A stretch of DNA of 64,000 bases from an uncultured Alphaproteobacteria bacterium (GTDB taxonomy: Bacteria > Pseudomonadota > Alphaproteobacteria > HIMB59 > GCA-002718135), in the NCBI GenBank assembly GCA_902621855.1, contig CACNNQ010000001.1, positions 248,001 through 312,000 on the forward strand, written 5' to 3'. Of the stretch, positions 43,886-45,904 are shown piece by piece (position 1 is the stretch's first letter; each line of letters opens with the position of its first letter). Position numbers and translations under genes: made by a program. Under the pieces are notes generated by a model that had not been told where the DNA came from, did not search any database, and saw only the letters and a list, made by a program, of their open reading frames with translations.

Positions 43886-45316
43886 CTACACGTCGTAGTA
43901 TAATTTGAACTCGTGTGGATGAGGTCTAATATTAATTGGGTCAACCTCACTCTCTTTTTTATAGTTAATATAGGTTTCAATTACATCTTTAGTAAACACA
44001 TCGCCCTCTAATAAAAATGCATGATCTTTTTCAAGAGCCTCAAGAGATTCAGCTAAAGATCCTGGAGTAGATTGAATTTTAGATAAAACTTCATCGCTAG
44101 CAGCATAGAGATTTATATCTGTAGGATCACCAGGATCGATTTTATTTTTAATTCCATCTAATCCTGCCATTAACATTGCTGAGAATGCTAAGTATGGGTT
44201 TGCACTTGGATCAGGGCATCTAAATTCCATTCTTTTTGCTTTAGGACTTTGAGAATAAGCAGGAATTCTTACTGATGCAGTTCTATTTCTTTGAGAGTAA
44301 ACAATGTTTACCGGAGCCTCAAATCCTGGTACCAATCTTTTGTAAGAGTTAGTAGTAGGGGCACAAAAAGCTAATAGTGCAGGAGCATGTTTAAGAATAC
44401 CTCCAATATAACTTAGTGCTAAATCACTTAAGTTGGCATAGTTACCTTCTTTGTACATAAGTGTATCACCATCTTTCCAAACACTTTGATGAACGTGCAT
44501 ACCTGAACCATTATCTTCAAATAAAGGTTTAGGCATAAATGTAGCTGTCATTCCGTGCTGCTTTGCAACATTCTTAACGACATATTTATATTTCATCATG
44601 TCATCTGCCATTTTCAAAAGAGGTGAAAATTCTAAATCTATTTCACATTGTCCACCTGTTGCAACTTCATGGTGATGTGCCTCAACAGTTAAACCAATGT
44701 CTTGCATAGTCATTACCATTTCAGTTCTAACATCTTGAAGTGTATCCACAGGAGGTAGAGGGAAATAACCTTCTTTGTGTCTTGGCTTATGACCAAGATT
44801 TGGATTTTCATCGGCACCACTATTCCAAGTACCCTCTATTGAATCAACTTCGTGGAATGCAAAATTTGATCCTGAATCAAATTGAACATTATTAAATACA
44901 AAAAATTCTGCTTCTGGACCAAAAAATGCTGTATCTCCAATTCCAGATGATTTTAAATATGCTTCTGCTTTTTTAGCAATATTTCTCGGATCACGACTAT
45001 AATCAACCAAAGTTACGGGATCTTTAATATTACAATGTAATGCTAAGGTTTTTTCAGAAAAAAAAGGATCAACATAAGCTGTTGCAGCATCAGGTAATAC
45101 GATCATATCACTATCTTGAATTTCTTGAAATCCCCTTACTGATGATCCATCAAATCCTAGTCCGTCAGAAAATATATCTTCATCTAGAAATTTAATTGGA
45201 ATTGTAAAATGTTGTGTTGTTCCTGGTATATCAGTAAAGCGCATATCGACCATTTTAATGTCCATATTTTTAATCTCAGACATTAAATCTTTTGGAGTCG
45301 AGCTTTTTAATTTCAT
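43886..45316 (-). CDS. glnA: Glutamine synthetase type I
   Basis: [68 protein letters not shown]. Confidence 0.96.
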
Positions 45317-45401
45317 ATCTATCTCCTTACTTCAACAAAAGGGTATGCTTTCCAGCTATTACCCGGTTAAATCATGCTCTAGTTATGAAATCTGCTATTT
45401 A

Positions 45402-45457
45402 TGCGCGTTCCTTCAGCAAATGCTTACTTCCGACCTGCATGAGCAGGTTGAACGATT
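45402..45457 (-). ncRNA. glnA RNA (glutamine riboswitch) candidate, 3' (glnA-proximal) copy
   Basis: Minus strand atcgttcaacctgctcatgcaggtcggaagtaagcatttgctgaaggaacgcgca; P1 CGUUC/GAACG, P2 ACCUGC/GCAGGU, P3 AGCA/UGCU, conserved CGGAAGUA and GAAGGAACGC. Confidence 0.88.
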
Positions 45458-45469
45458 TATAACTTTTGC

Positions 45470-45523
45470 ATGCGTTCCTTCAGCACAATGCCTACTTCCG
45501 ACTCAAAAAGAGTTGAACGATTA
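45470..45523 (-). ncRNA. glnA RNA (glutamine riboswitch) candidate, 5' copy
   Basis: Minus strand atcgttcaactctttttgagtcggaagtaggcattgtgctgaaggaacgcatgc; P2 ACUC/GAGU differs from the other copy but preserves pairing; same conserved core. Confidence 0.88.
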
Positions 45524-45562
45524 TTAGATAATTACTACCTTTTAAAGAAAAGTAAAGAAAAA

Positions 45563-45904
45563 TTAGACAGCATCACTGTCTTTTTCTCCAGTTCTTATTC
45601 TTACTACCTGCTCTATATTTGATACAAAAATCTTACCATCACCAATTTTTCCAGAATAAGCATTAGATTTTATTGATTCTATGACCTCATCAACTTGCTT
45701 GTCTTCCACTATGACTTCTAATTTCATTTTTGCTAAGAATTCGTCATCGTAAGCATCCCCAGAATCTATTCCTCCAGTTGAACCTCTTTGTCTTCCAAAG
45801 CCTTTGACATCAACAAGAGTCATTCCTGATATTCCTAGTTCATGAAGAGAGTCCTTAACTTGAGATAGTTTAAATGGTTTAATTATTGCTTCAATTTTTT
45901 TCAT
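45563..45904 (-). CDS. glnB: Nitrogen regulatory protein P-II
   Basis: MKKIEAIIKPFKLSQVKDSLHELGISGMTLVDVKGFGRQRG ... GKIGDGKIFVSNIEQVVRIRTGEKDSDAV. Confidence 0.95.
   Translation of the reverse strand: MKKIEAIIKPFKLSQVKDSLHELGISGMTLVDVKGFGRQRGSTGGIDSGDAYDDEFLAKMKLEVIVEDKQVDEVIESIKSNAYSGKIGDGKIFVSNIEQVVRIRTGEKDSDAV

Follow-up and report, generated by a model that had tools for sequence, protein, structure and literature searches.

The glnA leader of this alphaproteobacterium carries two tandem aptamers of the glnA RNA class, and on balance we favour reading it as a dual-aptamer glutamine riboswitch coupled by a helix (P4), with a shared platform that lowers glnA expression, and as a stand-in for the glutamine input of GlnD/GlnE. 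The window, by which we mean the whole stretch of 64,000 nucleotides analysed, encodes on its minus strand an aminotransferase, glnB, the tandem aptamers and glnA, in this order. The initial annotation had recognized a P-II/glutamine synthetase locus, and this was borne out by PF00543 for glnB and TIGR00653 for glnA, both on the minus strand; its assignment to an alphaproteobacterial host was also judged right. The glnB–glnA gap measures 246 bases in the host genus versus about 45 bases, without an aptamer, in the sister family. The features of the locus are as follows.

45563–45904, minus strand: glnB, PII protein of 113 aa with a divergent T-loop (PF00543; T-loop comparison)
45469–45521, minus strand: aptamer 1 (5′ copy), RF01739, 60.3 bits, model 1–53
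45459–45472, minus strand: inter-aptamer linker (CAUGC-AAA-AGUUAU), candidate 5′ strand of P4; conserved, complementary to 45373–45386 and overlapping the 3′ flank of the aptamer 1 match
45402–45456, minus strand: aptamer 2 (3′ copy), RF01739, 63.4 bits, model 1–53
45387–45391, minus strand: trailer AUUUC, possible (weak) anti-Shine-Dalgarno or anti-P1 element; UYC is complementary to GGA of P1 in aptamer 2 in RNAalifold
45373–45386, minus strand: trailer past aptamer 2 (AUAACU-AGA-GCAUG), candidate 3′ strand of P4 from complementarity, conservation and folding
45341–45364, minus strand: P5, a hairpin (GGGUA...UACCC) with UUUU behind it, read from the sequence; candidate for the expression platform
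45323–45328, minus strand: Shine-Dalgarno (SD) AAGGAG of glnA, read from the sequence
43886–45316, minus strand: glnA, type I glutamine synthetase of 476 aa (TIGR00653, 665 bits against a cut-off of 429)

Read directly on the minus strand, each copy has the order AUCGUUCA-hairpin-CGGAAGUA-hairpin-GAAGGAACGC. P1 is CGUUC/GAACG in aptamers 1 and 2 alike, and P2 is ACUC/GAGU in the 5′ copy versus ACCUGC/GCAGGU in the 3′ copy, which confirms the earlier description of an identical P1 and a differing P2 with pairing retained. Comparison with Rfam release 15 by cmscan agreed with the direct reading that two successive hairpin-bearing copies lie 5′ of glnA, and the suggested class held, since both full-length matches (60.3 bits, E 8e-11 for aptamer 1; 63.4 bits, E 1e-11 for aptamer 2) are well above the RF01739 gathering score of 35 bits. 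No other Rfam family scored above cut-off in the leader, the glutamine-II riboswitch (RF01704) reaching 18.1 bits against a cut-off of 33 bits. In a set of 31 non-redundant leaders with tandem aptamers, we counted two-sided compensatory changes in 142 cells of P2 and P3 from both copies, versus 45.6 ± 8.4 in shuffles, an excess that places the tandem aptamers far beyond chance; P1 is silent in this respect because it is invariant. The core segments CGGAAGUA and GAAGGAACG are unchanged across the 31 leaders. With scores above cut-off, a P1–P2–P3 fold supported by covariation in P2 and P3, and a nitrogen-metabolism gene downstream, the window element adds a member to a known RNA class. Given this membership, both aptamers would be expected to bind glutamine. 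Ames and Breaker reportedly showed glutamine binding of the glnA RNA in 2011.

A 2010 study (PMC2864571) described the RNA class, its link to glutamine synthetase and ammonium transporters and its tandem copies, and a 2022 review counted 157 doublets and 4 triplets, which it filed as pseudo-cooperative (PMC9481103). The tandem arrangement mentioned in the initial annotation is therefore a property of the class already known in marine bacteria, and a sharper response from tandem copies is plausible. The window's leader resembles the described glnA RNA in its aptamer core, P1–P3, its position before glutamine synthetase or ammonium transporter genes, its tandem copies and its marine setting. Relative to RF01739 in the literature searched, the window's leader type differs in a P4 that would enclose aptamer 2, in the putative shared platform and in a circularly permuted (CP) ATP-grasp operon as a target. 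P4, the partition between aptamers and GlnD/GlnE and the ATP-grasp target were not found in the main texts searched; the main text of PMC10308909, which equates AEGEAN-169 with HIMB59, makes no mention of riboswitches, glnD, P-II, ammonium, glutamine or nitrogen regulation.

Comparison of the tandem leaders indicates conservation of the linker between the aptamers, mostly CAUGC-A(1–3)-AGUUAU, and of an element past aptamer 2 on its 3′ side, mostly AUARCU, 2 or 3 nt and GCAUG; the two are complementary to each other over 5+6 bp. The complementarity pattern is present in 98 of 98 complete tandem loci of the window's type; the other 8 of 106 loci fall outside this count as contig-end cuts, by one base that differs after GCATG, or as SAR86-type leaders. 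P4 belongs to the minimum-energy structure in the window, with pair probabilities of 0.90–0.95, and its lower half was predicted unprompted by RNAalifold. The upper half scored 65% on the MAFFT alignment, depressed by misplaced gaps in the linker, so we recounted P4 on 13 haplotypes that were registered by hand and padded with N. On these, pairing holds in 95% of cells versus 13–35% with the partners slid. We propose that P4 pairs the linker with the trailer, and in the modelled structure it would abut P1 of aptamer 1 while enclosing aptamer 2. Alternatively, no helix forms and something else maintains the two elements, for instance protein binding or an inverted repeat acting at the DNA level. 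Their primary sequence is conserved beyond the needs of pairing, the 13 haplotypes hold no two-sided compensatory changes, and GCATGC is a palindrome. However, the few changes in P4 mostly preserve pairing (A-U to G-U, U-A to U-G), the strands are co-conserved across three gene families and the helix emerges unprompted in folding, and we regard the non-helix explanation as unlikely. For SAR86 leaders, a helix resembling P4 (CAGGAU:AUCCUG) was considered and dropped because the UCCUG motif recurs in leaders whose short linker offers it no partner.

The anatomy of the leader points to two aptamers on one platform. We found no terminator, SD or open reading frame in the 12 nt between the RF01739 matches, thus both aptamers would have to share a downstream platform, which we take to comprise P5 and the SD region. 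The one hairpin called in a scan for intrinsic terminators lies at the glnB stop (45565–45581); none was called between the copies or after the aptamers. Two homologous aptamers, the first without a platform of its own, correspond to the glycine-like dual-aptamer type; the tandem glycine riboswitch, although unrelated in aptamer and ligand, is our candidate for a system that works alike, since it also joins two homologous aptamers, one platform and a helix that involves the linker. In the glycine riboswitch the partner of the linker is the leader segment upstream of aptamer 1, whereas here it would be the trailer 3′ of aptamer 2. Tandem glutamine riboswitches have instead been described as creating pseudo-cooperative systems (PMC9481103), in which two switches act independently in series. 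Those systems share same-class doublets with the window's leader, and the description would apply here if each aptamer had its own expression platform. The first copy lacks one, there being neither room nor element for it in the mere 12 nt between the copies, and a conserved linker complementary to the trailer argues against independent action, which makes serial switching improbable for this leader.

We propose that, when glutamine is plentiful, the shared platform would lower glnA expression, with the initiation of translation as the most likely step. A shared platform that lowers glnA is the most likely arrangement, while the direction of control and the choice between translation and termination are less firm; lowering is preferred chiefly on physiological grounds. 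The P5 stem is retained as AGGUA/UACCU in one other leader (L117), and others keep a hairpin of different sequence. Termination of transcription at P5 would agree with the UUUU that follows it (45341–45364) and with the longer U runs after the hairpin in several glnA leaders, such as L029 and L075, but P5 was not called by the terminator scan, ammonium transporter leaders lack a U run after the hairpin and no antiterminator pairing was recognized by eye. We therefore consider termination less likely than translational control, though the least improbable of the rival readings. The conserved UUUC(C)AU beside P4 offers the SD its best partner in 21 of 22 distinct ammonium transporter leaders but in just one of 17 glnA leaders, and in the window's own glnA leader it does not; as an anti-SD element the trailer is convincing in the ammonium transporter leaders only and weak before glnA.

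Forcing P1 of both copies, as in bound aptamers, adds pairs to P4 in nested folding and raises the median freedom of the SD from 0.35 to 0.78 in ammonium transporter leaders and from 0.60 to 0.82 in glnA leaders, in a model that leaves out pseudoknots and the tertiary aptamer fold. Occlusion of the SD upon ligand binding was not reproduced at this level; the folding even gives the reverse, a more accessible SD. These results fit an ON switch, in which glutamine would stabilize P1 and P4, keep the trailer off the SD and raise expression, and in cyanobacteria a glutamine ON switch is known on an inhibitor of glutamine synthetase. Before glnA and ammonium transporter genes, however, such a switch would impose positive glutamine feedback on glutamine synthetase and ammonium uptake, which is physiologically unexpected, and the folding ignores those same parts of the aptamer structure. 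We judge an ON switch to be doubtful and retain lowering of glnA by glutamine as the preferred direction.

We compared the regulators of the host genus with those of a sister family of the same order. Aptamers occur in 36 of 37 genus genomes, with two to eight in each, and in 0 of 24 sister-family genomes. The single genus genome without aptamers (G015) also lacks glnA above cut-off, thus its glnA contig is probably missing from the assembly. GlnD (TIGR01693) was found in 24/24 sister-family genomes versus 0/37 in the host genus, and GlnE (PF03710) in 22/24 versus 0/37, all genus genomes being incomplete; GlnD was not found in the genus member G221, which is 96% complete. NtrC offered no contrast as a comparator, with no genome above the curated cut-off. 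PII is encoded in both groups, mostly in two copies in the sister family and one in the host genus. Its T-loop is canonical in the sister family, GHTELYRGAEYVVDF, and in the genus reads GSTGGIDxxDxYDDEF, with the tyrosine kept but diverged from the canonical HTELYRGAEY form. The loci compared were the window's glnB (45563–45904), L178, L179 and L137, and the divergence accompanies the loss of GlnD.

GlnD passes the glutamine signal to PII by uridylylation. With GlnD absent, PII in the genus cannot take the glutamine signal by this route, and it may still sense 2-oxoglutarate/ATP/ADP. The initial proposal that both RNA and P-II sense glutamine is not what these genomes suggest, with GlnD and GlnE both at 0/37 and the T-loop diverged. 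The aptamers would be the obvious replacement, and judging from gene distribution the RNA probably supplies the glutamine input normally given by GlnD rather than adding to it, standing in for the lost GlnD/GlnE cascade in the host lineage. Like the GlnD/PII/GlnE cascade of Proteobacteria, the arrangement would adjust glutamine synthetase to glutamine, and PII is still encoded beside glnA; unlike it, GlnD and GlnE are absent and sensing would have shifted to the mRNA leader. Mutual exclusion of GlnD and the riboswitch as a general rule was ruled out: in f10, another alphaproteobacterial family, 23/32 genomes have GlnD and 23/32 the aptamer, and both occur together in some SAR116, SAR86, SAR92 and betaproteobacterial genomes. 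The replacement reading is thus lineage-specific and correlational.

In 387 genomes drawn from the class, the riboswitch was found in the host genus and f10 only. Tandem pairs in the genus precede glnA, the CP-ATP-grasp operon and ammonium transporter genes, the last in some cases as two in succession with about 2 kb between them; a common leader on these nitrogen genes favours the riboswitch reading. In the window's genome (88.5% complete) no ammonium transporter was detected; a further tandem pair lies there on contig C4, before CP-ATP-grasp and then alpha-E and transglutaminase-like genes (L155:1600-5039 in G000:C4). The f10 aptamer, mostly a single copy, precedes the same CP-ATP-grasp gene in 7 of 10 f10 loci examined, and its presence there in both groups links this uncharacterized operon to glutamine. 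Several CP-ATP-grasp leaders (L006, L007, L047 and others) have an apparent short ORF of about 15–20 codons, which follows the aptamers and a hairpin with AAAGG in its loop and precedes the ATP-grasp start.

A pattern scan of named genomes gave at least 120 tandem stretches, in uncultured marine alphaproteobacteria, SAR116, SAR86, SAR92 and others. Ten of the leaders (L038, L042, L050, L080, L081, L089, L090, L138, L141, L147) have linkers of 5–8 nt; such short-linker leaders, mostly from SAR86 and other proteobacteria, carry an SD-containing hairpin directly 3′ and then a short ORF, and the putative products, small and basic, may correspond to the cyanobacterial glutamine synthetase inactivating factors. 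Among SAR86-type leaders, tandem aptamers precede a TonB-receptor-like gene (L043, L096, L150) and triple aptamers an outer-membrane-like gene (L046, L107), both named by eye only. In one f10 genome (G470), two contigs (L174, L175) each carry a single RF01739 aptamer, the two being identical, with a phage tail-like open frame nearby, which suggests viral DNA in, or binned with, this genome; phage copies of the glutamine riboswitch are known (PMC9004378).

Our broadest proposal, which we advance tentatively and at rather less than an even chance, is that a previously undescribed, physically coupled unit of two aptamers and P4 on one platform has replaced the GlnD/GlnE glutamine input across a marine lineage. 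The idea that a riboswitch could take over from a classical protein sensor is appealing for streamlined marine bacteria. The order offers a clean comparison in its two sister families, which have the glnB–glnA locus in common, the one having GlnD/GlnE without aptamers and the other aptamers without GlnD/GlnE. The proposed P4 would provide a defined coupling element, open to mutation, through which to ask why pairs are so common among glutamine riboswitches.
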